A stretch of 64,000 nucleotides of DNA from Candidatus Kapaibacterium sp. (GTDB lineage Bacteria > Bacteroidota > Ignavibacteria > Kapaibacteriales > UBA2268): positions 255,635 through 319,634 of the forward strand of contig CALHGZ010000004.1 in assembly GCA_938031175.1 (NCBI GenBank), given 5' to 3'. The notes beneath the pieces are model-generated. The model was given only the letters and a program-made list of their open reading frames with translations. It ran no database searches and was not told the origin of the DNA. The position numbers and the translations under genes were made by a program. Below are positions 19,500 through 49,077 of the stretch, piece by piece (the stretch's first letter is position 1; the number at the start of each line of letters is the position of its first letter).

Positions 19500-20429
19500 A
19501 TGAAGTTCACTGCGGAAGAATTATTCGATTTAACTAATGTAAGCGGAGGTAGATTCGCTGTTTCAAATTTAAGCGAGGCAATTAAATTTTGTAGAAAAAA
19601 TGCAATTCAGCATTATGAAAATTTTCCTGTTGCCTCGATAATGATTCCTAATAGAATTAGGAATATGATATATCCAATATATGCATTTGCTCGTATTGCC
19701 GATGACATTTCTGATGAATGTAATGATGTTATGCCTGAAAGGCGTTTGAATGCATTGGATGATTTGCAAAATTTGCTTGTAAATACTTGCAAAAATAATA
19801 TAGATACAACAAACCCAATATTTTTAGCATTAAAATGGGTTATATTTGAAAAAAATATTCCTCTTGAATTATTTATTCGGTTATTAACAGCTTTTAGGAT
19901 GGATGTCAAATTTGTCCAGCCCCAAACAATTTACTCACTTATCGAATACTGCAATAATTCGGCTAACCCAATTGGGGAACTGATCCTAATAATGTTTGAT
20001 GAACATCATCAAGAAACAATACATTATTCAAATAAAATTTGTACTGGACTACAACTGATTAATTTTTGGCAGGATTTATCCATTGATTTGAAAAAAGGGC
20101 GTTGTTACATACCAGTGGAATATTTAAATTTCTATGGTCTCGATCCCAAGAATTTGTTAGATGAGAAAAAATCAGGTAAATTAAATTCTTGCATAACGCA
20201 AATTTTGAATGACACAAAAAAAATTTACAATGAAGGAATTGAACTGATTAATCGTCTAAAAAACAATATATTTAGATTTGAAATTGCACTTATATTTGAA
20301 AGCGGTTTAAGAATGATACAAAAATTAGAAGCAATGAATCTATACCTTATTGCGCAAAGGCCAAAATTGAATAAATTAGATTATATTCCGATATTATTTT
20401 CAGCTTTAATCAAACATAAAATTACATAA
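19500..20429 (+). CDS. hpnC: HpnC-type squalene/phytoene synthase family protein
   Basis: A 309-aa trans-isoprenyl diphosphate synthase. The first aspartate-rich motif is DDISDE (Asp68, Asp69, Asp72) in YAFARIADDISDE, and the second region is NFWQDLSIDLKKGRCYIP. HpnC, with HpnD and HpnE, makes squalene from farnesyl diphosphate: HpnD forms presqualene diphosphate, HpnC turns it into hydroxysqualene, HpnE reduces this. The gene overlaps hpnD by 1 nt (TAATG), so they are coupled. HpnE is not seen in the window. The split into C and D is based on sequence style and gene order. Confidence 0.85.
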   Translation: MKFTAEELFDLTNVSGGRFAVSNLSEAIKFCRKNAIQHYENFPVASIMIPNRIRNMIYPIYAFARIADDISDECNDVMPERRLNALDDLQNLLVNTCKNNIDTTNPIFLALKWVIFEKNIPLELFIRLLTAFRMDVKFVQPQTIYSLIEYCNNSANPIGELILIMFDEHHQETIHYSNKICTGLQLINFWQDLSIDLKKGRCYIPVEYLNFYGLDPKNLLDEKKSGKLNSCITQILNDTKKIYNEGIELINRLKNNIFRFEIALIFESGLRMIQKLEAMNLYLIAQRPKLNKLDYIPILFSALIKHKIT

Positions 20430-21331
20430 TGGAAGCAATAACACAACTAGAATTAGCAAACTATGAGCGTGTCGCACCACCAAAGATTGAACGTTCCAAT
20501 TTCCTTTATTCATTTACCTTTTTACCGAGAGAGGAAAGAGTAGCCATTAATTCAATTTATGCATTTTGTAACTATATTGATAGTATAGTTGATTGCTCAA
20601 CAAATAATGAAAAAAGTTTTAAAGTTAAAAATCATAGGCTGAATTGGTGGGCAAAAGAAATTGAAAAGATGTATCGCGGCGAGGTTACCAATCCTGTAAT
20701 GATTGCATTTAAAAAAATCATAGATAGATTTGGTATTCCTGAACAATACTTTATGACTTTAATTGATGGCTGTAAGAGAGACCTAATTCAAAAAAGGTAT
20801 TCGACATTTGGGGAATTAAAAGATTACTGTTTCAGTGTAGCTGGAATTGTCGGTTTAATCTGTATTGAAATTTTTGGATATAAATATCCTGAAACCCAAA
20901 AATACGCTATTAATCTTGGATATGCACTTCAATTGACAAATATATTGAGGGATATACCATCTGATTTAAAAAGAGGATATATTTATATTCCTCAAGAGGA
21001 TTTGAAACGTTTTGGTTATTCTGAAGAAGATTTAAAAAATCACATTTATAATGACAATTTCATTGATTTGATGAGATTTCAGACAAAACGAGCAAGAGAA
21101 TACTTCCATATTGCAAGAACTTATCTGAGGCCTGATGAAAGAAATAGTATCATCGCTGCCGAAATTATGGATGCAATTTACTATCGCCTATTAGAAAAAA
21201 TTGAGTTGAATGAATTTAATGTTTTTCAGAAAAAAATCAAAGTTTCTAATGTACATAAATTAATGATTGCTGTGAAACATTGGCTTTCATTAAAATTATT
21301 TGTTAAACGAATTAAAAAACATAGTCAATAA
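20429..21331 (+). CDS. hpnD: HpnD-type presqualene diphosphate synthase
   Basis: A 300-aa member of the squalene/phytoene synthase family. The first motif is YIDSIVD (Asp51, Asp55), where the family more often has DDxxD; the first Asp of the pair is Tyr-Ile here. The second motif NILRDIPSDLKRGYIYIP has Asp175 and Asp179. It likely couples two farnesyl diphosphates to presqualene diphosphate for hpnC. It is coupled to hpnC and followed 15 nt later by nuoE. A role in phytoene synthesis is the main alternative. Confidence 0.85.
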   Translation: MEAITQLELANYERVAPPKIERSNFLYSFTFLPREERVAINSIYAFCNYIDSIVDCSTNNEKSFKVKNHRLNWWAKEIEKMYRGEVTNPVMIAFKKIIDRFGIPEQYFMTLIDGCKRDLIQKRYSTFGELKDYCFSVAGIVGLICIEIFGYKYPETQKYAINLGYALQLTNILRDIPSDLKRGYIYIPQEDLKRFGYSEEDLKNHIYNDNFIDLMRFQTKRAREYFHIARTYLRPDERNSIIAAEIMDAIYYRLLEKIELNEFNVFQKKIKVSNVHKLMIAVKHWLSLKLFVKRIKKHSQ

Positions 21332-43456: not shown

Positions 43457-44788
43457 ATGAAATCAATATTAATTTATACGATTTCGATCATTTTATTTAC
43501 AATCATAGTTTATAGTATTGATAAATACTTTAATTATCAGGATTTTGAAACTCCACAATATTGCGGTACAAAATGTCACGAAGAATTTTTTCATCAATGG
43601 CGCCAATCAATGATGGCTCAAGCATTTACTCATGAATGGGATGAAATTGAGTATTTTGAGCTTGCTCTTCCACATTCCGAAATAGACGAAAAAGTGAGTG
43701 AAGTCAAGGCAGGTTGCAACGGTTGCCATGCGCCACTTGCATATTTAACAGGTGATATACCACCAAAACGACCATCGGAAAAAACACGTGCAAATGAATC
43801 GGTCTCCTGCGATGTTTGTCATACTATAGTTGGATTTACTGGCGATATTCCTTATAATTTTAATTATATTGTTAAGCCCGGCAAAACAAAGTATAATTCC
43901 AGAAAAAGTAATATCGAATCACCTAATCACAAAATTGAAGTAAATCCAATAATGAAAACTGGAGATTTTTGCGGAATCTGTCATAACGAAATGAGTCCTT
44001 ATGGAGTATGGGTTAAATCAACTCATCTCGAATGGAGAGAAGGGCCATATTATAAAGAGGGGGTACAATGTCAGGATTGCCATATGCCAAGAGCCGAAAC
44101 ACGAACAGCAGTGATGGGTAAAATATATCCTGATGCCCGCCAGCATTTATTCAACGGAGCTCATGACCCGGCTAAGGTAAAGGGAGCAGTAGAAATCAGG
44201 CTGAACCCGGATTGCACTGAGGTTGAGCCGGGCAATCCAGTCAAATTGAATGTCGTTTTATTTAACCAGAAAACTGGTCATAAGTTTCCAACTGGTTCTG
44301 TTGAGGATAGGATTCTCTGGTTACACGTCGAAGCTATTGATTCAAAAGGCAATGTTTATCATTTGCCAGTAGATAAAAAAGGTTTTGCTGGTGAGGAATA
44401 CACAATAGCACAAGATGTGCTTGCTTATCAGGATATGGGTATTCCGTTAAAAATACCAGATTTCAAAGGTGTTCAAAGAGATGGTATTCCAATTGGTGAT
44501 AGAATATTTAGAATGCCGTATTTCGACCCACAAGGGCGAATGACTATTCAGCAATGGAACACCGCTTCTCTTGGAGTTGATTATCGTATTGGGCCACGAC
44601 AGACCGTTATCGAAACATATACTTTCAATGTACCAGTAAATTTGCCATTAGGAAAGTTAAAGTTTGTTGCTGTTTTGAACTATCAACTTCTTGTCAAACC
44701 AGTAGCTGAATTTCTCAAAGTTCCCAAATCTGAGTATGAAATTATTGAAGTTAACAGACAAACAACTGAAATTAATGTAATTGATTGA
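43457..44788 (+). CDS. Multiheme cytochrome c with one unusual CX3CH site
   Basis: A 443-aa exported protein with an N-terminal membrane or signal helix (ILIYTISIILFTIIVYSI). Four standard heme motifs are CNGCH (87-91), CDVCH (118-122), CGICH (172-176) and CQDCH (205-209). A first motif at 36-41 reads CGTKCH, with three residues between the cysteines. All lie in the first half. The second half (about 240-443) is beta-rich, with KTGHKFPTGSVEDRILWLHVEA. It overlaps nothing but runs into a heme-bearing barrel gene 7 nt later, so the two form an operon, probably for electron transfer in the envelope. The substrate is unknown. Confidence 0.85.
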   Translation: MKSILIYTISIILFTIIVYSIDKYFNYQDFETPQYCGTKCHEEFFHQWRQSMMAQAFTHEWDEIEYFELALPHSEIDEKVSEVKAGCNGCHAPLAYLTGDIPPKRPSEKTRANESVSCDVCHTIVGFTGDIPYNFNYIVKPGKTKYNSRKSNIESPNHKIEVNPIMKTGDFCGICHNEMSPYGVWVKSTHLEWREGPYYKEGVQCQDCHMPRAETRTAVMGKIYPDARQHLFNGAHDPAKVKGAVEIRLNPDCTEVEPGNPVKLNVVLFNQKTGHKFPTGSVEDRILWLHVEAIDSKGNVYHLPVDKKGFAGEEYTIAQDVLAYQDMGIPLKIPDFKGVQRDGIPIGDRIFRMPYFDPQGRMTIQQWNTASLGVDYRIGPRQTVIETYTFNVPVNLPLGKLKFVAVLNYQLLVKPVAEFLKVPKSEYEIIEVNRQTTEINVID

Positions 44789-44795
44789 GGATAAC

Positions 44796-45977
44796 ATGAA
44801 AAAGTTTATTGTTATTGTAGCGCTAATGCTTATTTTATGTAATGAATCTTATTCGATTCCTGCATTCGCTCGTCAATATCGGCTTTCTTGTCAGACATGT
44901 CATATACCAGCACCACGGCTAAAGTCTTACGGCAATGAATTTGCTGCTAATGGATTTCTTATATCAGATCAGGAGAATACCCGTTATTATATCGAAACCG
45001 GAGATGATTTTCTATCTTTAATCAGAGATATACCAATTGCTTTAAGATTCGATTTAAATGGTTCATTCAATAATTCAAGAAATGAGAGAAATGATTTTGC
45101 TAGTCCATATATTTTAAAAATATTATCTGGTGGTGCTATTGCAAATAATATCAGCTATTATTTTTATTTTTTCTTTGCTGAAAGAGGTAGAGTTACTGGA
45201 ATTGAGGATGCATACATTATGTTCAATAACCTTTTTGGTATTGATTTAGACCTTTATGTTGGTCAATTCCAAATATCAGACCCGCTTTTTAAACGTGAGT
45301 TAAGGCTTACTTTTGAAGATTATCAGATTTACAGAAATTCAGTAGGTTTCAGTTCCGCTAATCTTGCTTATGATAGGGGTATTATGCTTACGCTTGGATT
45401 GGATACCGGTACTGATTTAGTCTTAGAAATAGTTAATGGGAACGGGATTGGTTCTGCTGATGTTAATAGATTGTTCGATAATGATAAAAATAAAAATTTC
45501 GTATTCAGAATTAGTCAGGATATAGCTGACTTTTTGAGATTGGGTGTGTTTGGCTACTTGGGTAGGCAGAAGGTTTATGCAGTTAATTACGATTTGACAT
45601 CGGAAATGCTATATTATGGTCCGGATTTGACTTTGTCTTTTGGAGATCTAATAGAATTGAATATACAATATCTATTAAGAAGAGATAATGAAGTTTTACT
45701 GACTACTGAAAAACCGCCACAAAGTAAGCTCATGACCAATGGCGGATTTGCTGAATTAATTGTAACGCCATTTGGAGATAACTCCAAGCAATATGGAACT
45801 ATATTGCTAAATTACATTAATTCGGATTTTAAAGATATTAATTACAAATCTGCAACTTTTCATATAGGTCAATTACTAAGAAGAAATGTTAGATTATTTT
45901 TGGAGTATTCTTATATAGATTCTTTTCTTGAAGGTGAGTATTCGAAGATTTTACTTGGCTTGTCAACAGCGTTTTAA
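44796..45977 (+). CDS. Outer-membrane beta-barrel with one N-terminal heme c motif
   Basis: A 393-aa protein with a signal peptide (MKKFIVIVALMLILCNESYS), then SIPAFARQYRLSCQTCH with a single CXXCH (32-36), and after that alternating beta-strands to the C-terminus, ending YSKILLGLSTAF as an outer-membrane barrel does. The family with FARxYxxxCxTCH followed by a barrel is widespread in bacteria with envelope electron-transfer genes. GAGG-type ribosome site (GAGG, 5 nt) supports the ATG at 44796. With the multiheme cytochrome it may form a porin-cytochrome unit. This job is inferred. Confidence 0.8.
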   Translation: MKKFIVIVALMLILCNESYSIPAFARQYRLSCQTCHIPAPRLKSYGNEFAANGFLISDQENTRYYIETGDDFLSLIRDIPIALRFDLNGSFNNSRNERNDFASPYILKILSGGAIANNISYYFYFFFAERGRVTGIEDAYIMFNNLFGIDLDLYVGQFQISDPLFKRELRLTFEDYQIYRNSVGFSSANLAYDRGIMLTLGLDTGTDLVLEIVNGNGIGSADVNRLFDNDKNKNFVFRISQDIADFLRLGVFGYLGRQKVYAVNYDLTSEMLYYGPDLTLSFGDLIELNIQYLLRRDNEVLLTTEKPPQSKLMTNGGFAELIVTPFGDNSKQYGTILLNYINSDFKDINYKSATFHIGQLLRRNVRLFLEYSYIDSFLEGEYSKILLGLSTAF

Positions 45978-47428
45978 TATTTTAATATTCGGAAATTGAA
46001 AAATTTCGAGTTATTTTGAATAGTTAAAATATACGCACCAGTGGGTAAGCTAGCTATATCAAGCGTTTTTGTAATTTCATCAAAATAATAATCATTTATT
46101 TCAGAACCATAAATATTAAAGATTTTCAAATCGGATTTTTTGATTGCATAAAGGTTCTTGATTATGATTTTATCGTTTTGAAAAACGATAAATTCATCAT
46201 AGTCGTTATCGTTATCTTTTTTTGTGGTAGTAATGTTTTGATTCACTGGCTGGAAACCAAATTCAGTGACTGCAGTTAGTTCTTTTATATCAATATCATT
46301 TAAGATATCTGAATTATAAGGTTCATAAACAATATCACATAATTTATAAATACCTCTACTATGGATTTTTACACCATTAATCGAGCCAAATACAATTTCT
46401 GCAATCATATTATCAGTATTAATGTCGAATATAAAGTAGCTTTCTTCCTTATTAAAAAGATTTCCTCTTTGAAGGCCGAGTACATTGCCTAGTATGTTAT
46501 TGAGGCTAATTTTAGCATATACTCCGAATACACCATCTGGTATGGATACATATATTGGTATTGATTTTGAATTTTTAGATTCAAAAGTTCTTTCATCCAG
46601 TATTGTATAGTTTTTATTTTGAATTTTTTCATTGTGTATATTTTGCTGAGATTTAAATTGTGTTTTACCAAAATTGACTGAGACAACGAGTACATCTCTA
46701 ATTGTAATATCGCCGTTACCGTCGCAATCAGCGAAGGTAGCTGAAGCACTATCCCAAGCTAAAACTTTTTGAGGTGCCCAAAGAGTACTACCAGAAGTTC
46801 TTTTGAAACTCTTCATTGATTTTGTTCTTGTGCCGAGCCCAAGGAGATAGCCAATTGTAGCAACATCATCGGTTGTTACTTTACCGTTATTGTCGGCATC
46901 ACCAGGCCAAACATCTACAAAACCGCGGATTATGTATTCGTAGAATTCAGATTCGAGGTTAATAATTTTACCAACTGTATCAGTATTTACTACGGCTTTA
47001 GCATTACGGAATGAAAATCTTGATATTAGGTTATGAGGTGCTGATTGAGATACAACAAATTCTAATCTTATCACTCTTGGTTCATCAAATATTGGATTTT
47101 CCAATAAATCATTGGATAAAACTCCGATATGAATTATACCCTGAGAATTGTTAACTATGGGAATCACAAGAGAGTTAGGATTTTTGCCAAAACCTAAAAC
47201 AGTCCAATTCGAAAACTTGATAAATTCAGCGTTATTATAATATAATTCAAAAGTTACACCTGTACATTTGAATACATCCTTTGCAATAATATCTATACTG
47301 AAAGGATATGTAGCAGTTATGAAATGACTACGATTTTGCTCGACATCGTTCCTTTCAATTACTAAAGTTTGTGATGGAGCATTATAATAAATCAATAATA
47401 AAATGGCTAATATTGTTAAAATTTTCAT
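45974..47428 (-). CDS. Secreted cohesin-like/dockerin protein with T9SS sorting domain
   Basis: A 484-aa exported protein. After a signal peptide (MKILTILAILLLIYYNAPSQ), about 130 residues look like a cohesin-type beta-sandwich. A dockerin-like pair of calcium loops follows: GDADNNGKVTTDDVATIGYLLG and ADCDGNGDITIRDVLVV (about 175-250). A second beta domain covers about 285-385, and the last 70 residues form a T9SS type A sorting domain (LKIFNIYGSEINDYY, SLPTGAYILTIQ). It is preceded by a near-perfect sigma-54 promoter. It should be exposed on or released from the cell surface. The stop overlaps that of the barrel gene (TTAA). Confidence 0.8.
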   Translation of the reverse strand: MKILTILAILLLIYYNAPSQTLVIERNDVEQNRSHFITATYPFSIDIIAKDVFKCTGVTFELYYNNAEFIKFSNWTVLGFGKNPNSLVIPIVNNSQGIIHIGVLSNDLLENPIFDEPRVIRLEFVVSQSAPHNLISRFSFRNAKAVVNTDTVGKIINLESEFYEYIIRGFVDVWPGDADNNGKVTTDDVATIGYLLGLGTRTKSMKSFKRTSGSTLWAPQKVLAWDSASATFADCDGNGDITIRDVLVVSVNFGKTQFKSQQNIHNEKIQNKNYTILDERTFESKNSKSIPIYVSIPDGVFGVYAKISLNNILGNVLGLQRGNLFNKEESYFIFDINTDNMIAEIVFGSINGVKIHSRGIYKLCDIVYEPYNSDILNDIDIKELTAVTEFGFQPVNQNITTTKKDNDNDYDEFIVFQNDKIIIKNLYAIKKSDLKIFNIYGSEINDYYFDEITKTLDIASLPTGAYILTIQNNSKFFNFRILKY

Positions 47429-47549: not shown

Positions 47550-48839
47550 TCATTTACTATAGACATATTTTTCAGTAACCGTGATGGGTCTTATTAATCT
47601 GAAATCACCAAATCCGGTGTTATCAACAAATATAAATTCACGATTATTTGGATAAGTCCATTTTTCAAAGACTCTATTATCCCCATACAGCGAAGGATAT
47701 CTTTCGATATTGAGTGGCTGGCCAAATATGATATAAACCATGCCTTTATCGGTCAGCCAGCCTTCATTATAAGAGCGGAAATTGTTGTTAGCGTAGTTTA
47801 TTCGTCCATAATATTCTTCAAAGGCTTCATTTCGTTCAGTATTGGGTGTTGGGTCTAACCTTGCCCAGAATTGTTCGAAACGTTCTAATTTAGCTTCAAG
47901 AGTTGGAGCGGAATTGATATAGTCCATATCTCTTTGATCAGCAACATATCTGAGTTGTCTTATAGCTAAATTAATATCAGCCATTAGCTTACCACTTAAT
48001 GATGGCATAAATTTTATATTTCGCTGAGCTATACCTAAATAATCTCTACTTGTGAAAGGTAAGTTTGGTGAATGTGGAAGTGCTAATAGCTGGAAAATAT
48101 ATGAACCTACAGCTAAATCCGGAGGTTTGGAAACTTTGATGTATTGCTGAGTTTGGCCTTTAATTATTTTGGGAATTCTTGAACTCTGGAATACAATTTT
48201 ATTGTTAGTATTAATAAATTCATAGACAAAGTCAATTGTATCTACAGTGTTATCAGAATATATTTCGAAAAAGATAAAAAAACCATCTTTTAATCGAGCA
48301 ACATTGTCAGATATATGAGGTGTGATAATGTATTTACCATTTTTTTCTTCGATAGAGCTTAAAAGCAACATTCCACTGATTGCGAATTTGAATTTACTAA
48401 AGTTTATAATGCTAATATTTCGAGATTGGGTGTATTCTTTATTTGAATTTTTATCAATTAACTTTAGTTTAACAATAAAATCTCCATAAGGAAGATGGAA
48501 GCTCCGTTTATATGCACGAAATGCACCGGTACTACCTTGTGTTAATTTATAATCGTCGAAAGACATAGCATCTTTGATAAGCTCATTGGCAACCTGATTG
48601 CCGGAAGAATCATTTATTGTGATGTTTATATTATACTCTGCTTTAAAAAAACTACCTGATTTAGTAAATTCAAGTGATTCAGCTGGTATCATTATATATG
48701 TATCTACTCTACCGGCAATGCTATCATTGAAATTTTCTGACCTAAAAACTATTGCATCTGAATAAAATATATCTTTTATTTCTCTTTGAGAAAATGACTT
48801 TAGCGGGAGTAAAAACAATATAATTATTAGGTAAATCAT
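47550..48839 (-). CDS. GWxTD domain-containing exported protein
   Basis: About 429 aa. The ATG at 48839 gives a clean signal peptide (MIYLIIILFLLPLKSFSQ); the frame runs back to a TTG at 48866. The middle is beta-rich (about 30-270). The C-terminal part carries the family mark EGWLTDKGMVYIIFGQP and the preceding FEQFWARLDPTPNTERNEA. GWxTD proteins occur in Chlorobiota, Ignavibacteria and Acidobacteria and are of unknown function. It lies 121 nt upstream of the dockerin gene, which has its own promoter. Confidence 0.85.
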   Translation of the reverse strand: MIYLIIILFLLPLKSFSQREIKDIFYSDAIVFRSENFNDSIAGRVDTYIMIPAESLEFTKSGSFFKAEYNINITINDSSGNQVANELIKDAMSFDDYKLTQGSTGAFRAYKRSFHLPYGDFIVKLKLIDKNSNKEYTQSRNISIINFSKFKFAISGMLLLSSIEEKNGKYIITPHISDNVARLKDGFFIFFEIYSDNTVDTIDFVYEFINTNNKIVFQSSRIPKIIKGQTQQYIKVSKPPDLAVGSYIFQLLALPHSPNLPFTSRDYLGIAQRNIKFMPSLSGKLMADINLAIRQLRYVADQRDMDYINSAPTLEAKLERFEQFWARLDPTPNTERNEAFEEYYGRINYANNNFRSYNEGWLTDKGMVYIIFGQPLNIERYPSLYGDNRVFEKWTYPNNREFIFVDNTGFGDFRLIRPITVTEKYVYSK

Positions 48840-49077
48840 TTTTAATGGTGTTTTCTTTGTGTTCAATGTTGATTTTTGACAAAATAATGAATTCTTTTGA
48901 AATTTTTATTTATGATGATGATAATCAACTGGTTTAAAAGATAATTTATTTACAATGTTTTTCGGCGTTTAATTTTAATTTAATTTGATTAATATTCTAA
49001 TAATTTGACGCTTTTTTTTATATTTTGTTGAATTGATAAATTTAGACAAAAATTTACTGAATTTTTATATGCAATAA

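Follow-up and report, generated by a model that had tools for sequence, protein, structure and literature searches.

The two adjacent genes at positions 43457–44788 (gene 1, 443 aa) and 44796–45977 (gene 2, 393 aa) on the plus strand of the window (the whole stretch of 64,000 nucleotides that was analysed, from a Candidatus Kapaibacterium genome of 2.69 Mb in 18 contigs) encode a probably secreted pentaheme c-type cytochrome with a Thermochromatium tepidum c552/ExtKL-like fold and a Cyc2-like fused monoheme cytochrome-porin. Judging by their pairing, motif and predicted folds, the two proteins probably make up a minimal redox conduit through the outer membrane, a reading that we hold with moderate confidence. 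By analogy with Cyc2, the gene 2 product would be a 16-strand porin with its own N-terminal heme domain at the periplasmic side, while the gene 1 product would be a periplasmic five-heme cytochrome exchanging electrons with this heme and joining it to the periplasmic pool. The unusual CX3CH motif at the first heme site of gene 1 would be a functional c-heme site lengthened by one residue, namely the Gly that follows the first Cys in the members examined. Both products resemble families linked in the literature to electron transfer at the outer membrane. The first-pass annotation had offered electron passage across the outer membrane or service to a periplasmic oxidoreductase, and either role may apply. 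We infer the docking of the two products, the order of the hemes and the electron transfer.

The start of gene 2 was taken as the ATG at 44796, 7 nt past the stop of gene 1; the ORF list has this frame opening at TTG 44781. Since the flanking genes on both sides are on the opposite strand, the two genes form a unit of their own. The convergent neighbour (45974–47428, minus strand) encodes a secreted protein with dockerin-like calcium repeats, as judged by eye, and a weak match to a C-terminal sorting domain (25.2 bits, the cut-off being 27), and a GWxTD-domain protein (PF20094) is encoded at 47550–48866 (minus strand). Elsewhere in the window, a tandem pair of squalene/phytoene-synthase-like genes with a one-base overlap was noticed by eye at 19500–21331 (plus strand). 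Respiration with oxygen as well as with nitrite is possible, given that a cytochrome oxidase gene and genes of the NrfH and NrfA types are found in the genome.

The first-pass annotation had read four CXXCH sites and one CGTKCH in gene 1, and these are indeed present: site 1, CGTKCH (residues 36–41, 43562–43579), site 2, CNGCH (residues 87–91, 43715–43729), site 3, CDVCH (residues 118–122, 43808–43822), site 4, CGICH (residues 172–176, 43970–43984) and site 5, CQDCH (residues 205–209, 44069–44083), all on the plus strand and all backed by conservation. The lipobox pattern was not found in the protein. Its predicted structure (pLDDT 88.5) matched the pentaheme c552 of T. tepidum (5ze8) with a VIA Z of 26.5 and an rmsd of 3.3 over 343 aligned residues, compared to a Z of 10.6 for the next-best VIA row, and with 3.5e-17 in Foldseek; the remaining 49 listed structure matches covered only the immunoglobulin-like part, which corresponds to a C-terminal domain at about residues 240–443. 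Five heme sites, one of them CX3CH, and the fold in common with 5ze8 place gene 1 in the pentaheme c552/PHC family. The Pfam models scoring above cut-off were Cytochrome_C7, Cytochrome_C554 and NapC/NirT. The best NCBIfam model was ExtKL, which was matched at E 0.001 or better by all 61 gene 1 members scanned, with the window protein reaching 48.3 bits against the 250-bit cut-off of the equivalog NF040886. The PHCs of cable bacteria have been grouped with ExtKL, and their structural homology to c552 was noted (PMC11976967). The gene 1 family shares five hemes and an immunoglobulin-like domain with these proteins (PMC11976967), but differs in having CX3CH at site 1 in most of its members and in adjoining a gene for a heme-bearing barrel, whereas no porin gene was found close to the PHC genes of cable bacteria (PMC11976967).

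Gene 2 was compared with Cyc2 as defined by Keffer et al. (2021), i.e., a 16-strand porin of more than 365 aa with PXFAR[QK][TY] ahead of a single CXXCH and PXL after it (PMC8406198). The signature occupies residues 21–43 (44856–44924, plus strand) and contains the core motif, a single CXXCH (CQTCH, residues 32–36) and PRL in the place of PXL, although the full motif AXPXFAR[QK][TY] is broken by S in the place of the leading A. The expectation that gene 2 is a beta-barrel with one heme motif was borne out at the level of prediction: its AlphaFold2 model had 16 strands of at least 3 residues (mean pLDDT 83.1, pTM 0.81; residues 16–23 below pLDDT 50), which, together with the length of 393 aa, agrees with a fused 16-strand porin of at least 365 aa. 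All 50 listed PDB matches of the model, except two engineered entries, were porins, including OprP and OprO, with a TM (query) of up to 0.59 among the listed rows, and the barrel would lie in the outer membrane. The motif elements recurred in 76 loci taken without a motif filter: CXXCH was found in all 76, PXL at +4 in 68 and at +4 or +5 in all, and the Cyc2 core in 67, the other nine showing one-residue departures from the core, for instance FGR, YAR or FARR. The full Cyc2 motif plus PXL at +4 was present in 45/71 sequences of a set biased by preselection with the PXFAR pattern. NCBIfam models gave no match with 52 gene 2 proteins, and Pfam detected only the porin family BBP2 in three and SlpA_C in one of them. 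A gene 2 profile matched nine other barrels, named Cyc2-like by motif alone, with a probability of 99.9 at 16% identity. Thus, gene 2 resembles Cyc2 in core motif, single CXXCH, PXL, 16-strand porin and length, the likeness being one of motif and predicted fold, and differs from it in the leading residue of the motif and in forming a two-gene unit together with the gene of a pentaheme cytochrome. The Mtr/Mto/Pio and Omb-Oma-Omc systems likewise combine a barrel with a periplasmic multiheme cytochrome, their barrel, as far as is known, being heme-free. In contrast to the 24–32 strands of MtoB and PioB (PMC5566968), gene 2 has 16 predicted strands and a heme motif of its own, and does not correspond to the Mtr/Mto type with a barrel of at least 24 strands around a multiheme cytochrome.

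A gene 1 match was found in 21 out of 60 related genomes. Seven of them, including the window's own, had a close gene 1 (67% identity or more; one is a fragment), and the other six close genes all had CGT[KST]CH, while 14 further genomes contained 16 distant homologs with 25–34% identity. Gene 2 orthologs (53–59% identity) adjoined gene 1 in five of the six relatives that have such a close gene; in the sixth (G006), another gene occupied the next open frame after gene 1, followed by the contig end. When named genomes were scanned with five close orthologs, at least 588 stretches were obtained, of which at least 538 were relatives, and the best 80 of the latter (L056–L135, best-segment identity 59–74%) were kept; the two conserved peptides on which the scan was keyed lie around residue 59 and at site 5, and the sample is biased accordingly. 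The hosts of the kept loci included Ignavibacteria, Melioribacter, Bacteroidales, Aminicenantes, Acidobacteriota, Zixibacteria, Kryptoniota, Gemmatimonadetes and Glassbacteria, mostly as metagenome-assembled genomes (MAGs) in which binning errors are possible, and two isolates, Marinilabilia salmonicolor and Tangfeifania diversioriginum. In 76 of the 80 loci, gene 1 was directly followed by a gene 2 homologue in the same orientation. Two of the remaining four (L071 and L128) reach the contig edge and two, L059 (whose contig ends 909 nt on) and L102, had no gene 2, so that gene 1 may also stand alone. In a draw of 395 genomes from the same phylum, overlapping with the previous set so that the counts are not additive, 26 had the gene 1 family at E 1e-100 or better, and the gene 2 motif was detected in 22 of 24 new loci by a biased pattern that already held PXFAR and CXXCH. 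The exceptions were L170, located at a contig edge, and L161, where an in-frame stop cuts gene 2 a short way past the heme motif, either by error or by decay. A larger operon was rejected, as no third gene was widely common to the loci: counting ORFs of at least 100 aa, every other family was limited to 9 loci or fewer. As a separate observation, nine of the 16 distant pentaheme homologs (L008–L023) had a lipobox-like N-terminus according to a simple pattern, and their genes often came, by eye, after another lipoprotein-like gene, perhaps as a second recurrent pair. The idea that this upstream protein is a PKD lipoprotein was dropped after the one case tested (L010) turned out to be an FGE-sulfatase-domain protein.

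Some features of gene 1 speak against a plain conduit. The Cys and His of heme motifs 2–5 are present in 80/80 aligned family sequences, conservation around residue 59 and at site 5 being partly by construction because the loci were chosen on those patterns. The heme half and the C-terminal half are equally conserved, and residues 341–380, outside of the heme sites, form conserved blocks with means of 0.87 and 0.90; at a guess, this region is a partner or substrate face. Such conservation of the C-terminal half exceeds the needs of a plain wire and hints at catalysis. Furthermore, for the five hemes, the family and the distant set had no more than four distal His candidates in common (H59, H158, H230 and H275), which may leave one heme open and catalytic. 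A His-to-Met ligand switch tied to CX3CH was rejected, since Met53 is present in 79/80 sequences regardless of the form of site 1 and the His of the distant set aligned at H59 in a larger alignment.

These properties would also suit a periplasmic reductase with its own door, in which the barrel admits a small solute, such as an oxyanion, for reduction by the pentaheme cytochrome and the barrel heme tunes or gates rather than conducts. This alternative appears unlikely, albeit with an appreciable chance of being correct. It agrees with the high conservation of gene 1 (mean column identity 65% in 61 sequences), with the heme possibly left without a conserved distal His and with the presence of OprP and OprO among the fold matches of gene 2, and it has a precedent in the Geobacter ext cluster, where the five-heme ExtKL is encoded near the porin ExtI, itself weakly similar to phosphate-selective porins (PMC5877670). 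Loss of ExtI lowered selenite and tellurite reduction and left Fe(III) citrate reduction unaffected, and a model of this kind was proposed for ExtI and ExtKL with selenite (PMC5877670). However, ExtI has no heme motif, in contrast to the CXXCH found in all 76 gene 2 homologues, and the ext cluster also differs in having further cytochromes and in that its ExtKL is a proposed selenoprotein (PMC5877670). In addition, no substrate-binding site was identified in the analysis of the two genes.

The second alternative is an iron(II) oxidase, with the Cyc2-like barrel taking electrons from dissolved Fe(II) outside and passing them to the pentaheme cytochrome, which we regard as improbable. The Mariprofundus Cyc2, whose motif is common with gene 2, does oxidise Fe(II) (PMC8406198), and FeGenie takes Cyc2 for iron oxidation, with its cluster 3 described as 'probable iron oxidation and possible iron reduction' (PMC7005843). 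Most of the Deep Mine communities were dominated by cluster-3 Cyc2 matches, and the Ignavibacteriales and Zixibacteria from there were scored for both iron oxidation and iron reduction genes (PMC8478452). Three of our loci (L057, L119 and L125) carry DeMMO names. On the other hand, the hosts include Marinilabilia and Tangfeifania, which are organotrophs and not known as iron oxidisers. Cluster 3 was, moreover, called the most uncertain for function by Keffer et al. (PMC8406198). For the proposed conduit, electron export or reduction of small solutes seems likelier than iron oxidation, because its hosts include groups described as heterotrophs, such as Ignavibacteriales (PMC8478452). No experiment on any family member was found in the open PMC literature.

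Site 1 of gene 1 varied in spacing, with its Cys and His strictly kept: C36, C40 and H41 are each present in 80/80 aligned sequences (the window, L006 and 78 loci), in the form of CX3CH in 63 and of CXXCH in 17. The 78 loci, from which L118 (broken start) and L135 (partial) were left out, had been picked by the two peptide patterns at the DNA level, and site 1 played no part in choosing them; 61 of them had CX3CH, always starting with CG, and 17 had CXXCH. In the phylum draw, a set overlapping with these loci, CX3CH was present in 21 of 23 readable loci. Therefore, a sequencing error or a local oddity was rejected as the origin of CX3CH. The 16 distant homologs, which belong to the same taxonomic order, all had CXXCH at site 1, and 5ze8 has CANCH at the aligned place. 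Hence, the earlier claim that CGTKCH stands where relatives have a first CXXCH was correct, while conservation of CX3CH in orthologs held only in part, the 17 deviating sequences still having a heme motif. At least seven changes between CX3CH and CXXCH inside the family were counted on a tree built by a quick method without the site 1 columns, and well-supported branches forced at least five, counted on the whole tree including the outgroup.

A dead site 1 is unlikely in view of both Cys and the His being kept and of the repeated switching with CXXCH, and we infer, from sequence and by analogy, that CX3CH would carry heme. The corresponding alternative, in which site 1 of the CX3CH members lacks heme or binds it by a single Cys and leaves the protein effectively tetraheme, has in its favor the deviation from the usual heme motif, but is very improbable given the invariant ligands at alternating spacing, the CXXCH of 5ze8 at the aligned place and the heme found on a natural CX3CH in MmcA (PMC11024163). 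In the latter, heme c was detected by mass spectrometry on the non-canonical heme peptides, with a mass shift for all seven peptides (PMC11024163), the host being an archaeon with its own maturation system (PMC9084895); one CX3CH is also present in the homologs of ImcH (PMC6295460). Both ImcH and MmcA thus resemble gene 1 in having a single CX3CH among CXXCH sites (PMC6295460, PMC11024163), but they were not recognised as its relatives, and what sets the gene 1 family apart from them is the repeated switching between CX3CH and CXXCH at this site among its own members. Another CX3CH-type motif was observed in the window genome: a 749-aa cytochrome b561 plus multiheme protein (L143:511–2757, contig C2 of about 342 kb) has CGTLCH and six CXXCH, and a gene for a 13-heme cytochrome lies upstream of it.

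The search for ccm genes, which the first-pass annotation had proposed, was positive: CcmC-, CcmE- and CcmF-type genes occur together with a thioredoxin-like gene in the window genome, in which ResB gave no match. CcmE and ResB were further sought in 50 genomes, which represented every one of the 17 CXXCH loci and our own selection of 33 from the 61 CX3CH loci, and the counts rest on MAGs that are possibly incomplete. Among the CXXCH genomes, 6 had CcmE only, 10 had over-cut-off ResB only and 1 had neither, compared to 20, 10 and 3, respectively, among the 33 CX3CH genomes; the two were never found together (0/50). A tie between CX3CH and the maturation system was not supported (Fisher p 0.07), and in the few independent tree pairs available (n = 5) the system was the same in 4.1 out of 5 on average. 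Since CX3CH occurred with either System I or System II genes, neither seems to be strictly required, subject to MAG completeness. In several genomes (those of L117, L120, L122, L128, L130, L132 and others), the ResB matches were located in frames of approximately 1,020–1,060 codons that would fit a fused ResB-CcsA.

Both protein families are already known, each of the genes being a member of or close to one, as is CX3CH elsewhere. No description of the gene 1/gene 2 pair was found in searches of open PMC papers. What appears new relative to this literature is that the two genes form a fixed pair, that the pair is widespread and that the motif at site 1 switched repeatedly. Tentatively, the pair may represent a widespread and so far unrecognised class of conduits, in which a Cyc2-like porin almost always goes with a PHC-type pentaheme cytochrome in mostly organotrophic members of many phyla and serves electron export or solute reduction; part of what is taken for Cyc2 'iron oxidation' in metagenomes would then be something else, and site 1 would be free to change between CXXCH and CX3CH whichever maturation system is present. 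In genomic and metagenomic work, Cyc2-like genes are taken to indicate iron oxidation (PMC7005843, PMC9769843). As pores of this sort are classed with the iron oxidases, the pairing bears on the reading of such genes. The fixed pentaheme partner offers a simple genomic way to set apart a large subset of Cyc2-like genes in unlikely iron oxidisers. The gene 1 family, with CX3CH and CXXCH relatives at one and the same site, further provides a natural experiment in how c-type heme is attached, in which the comparison spans genomes with detected maturation genes of either System I alone or System II alone.
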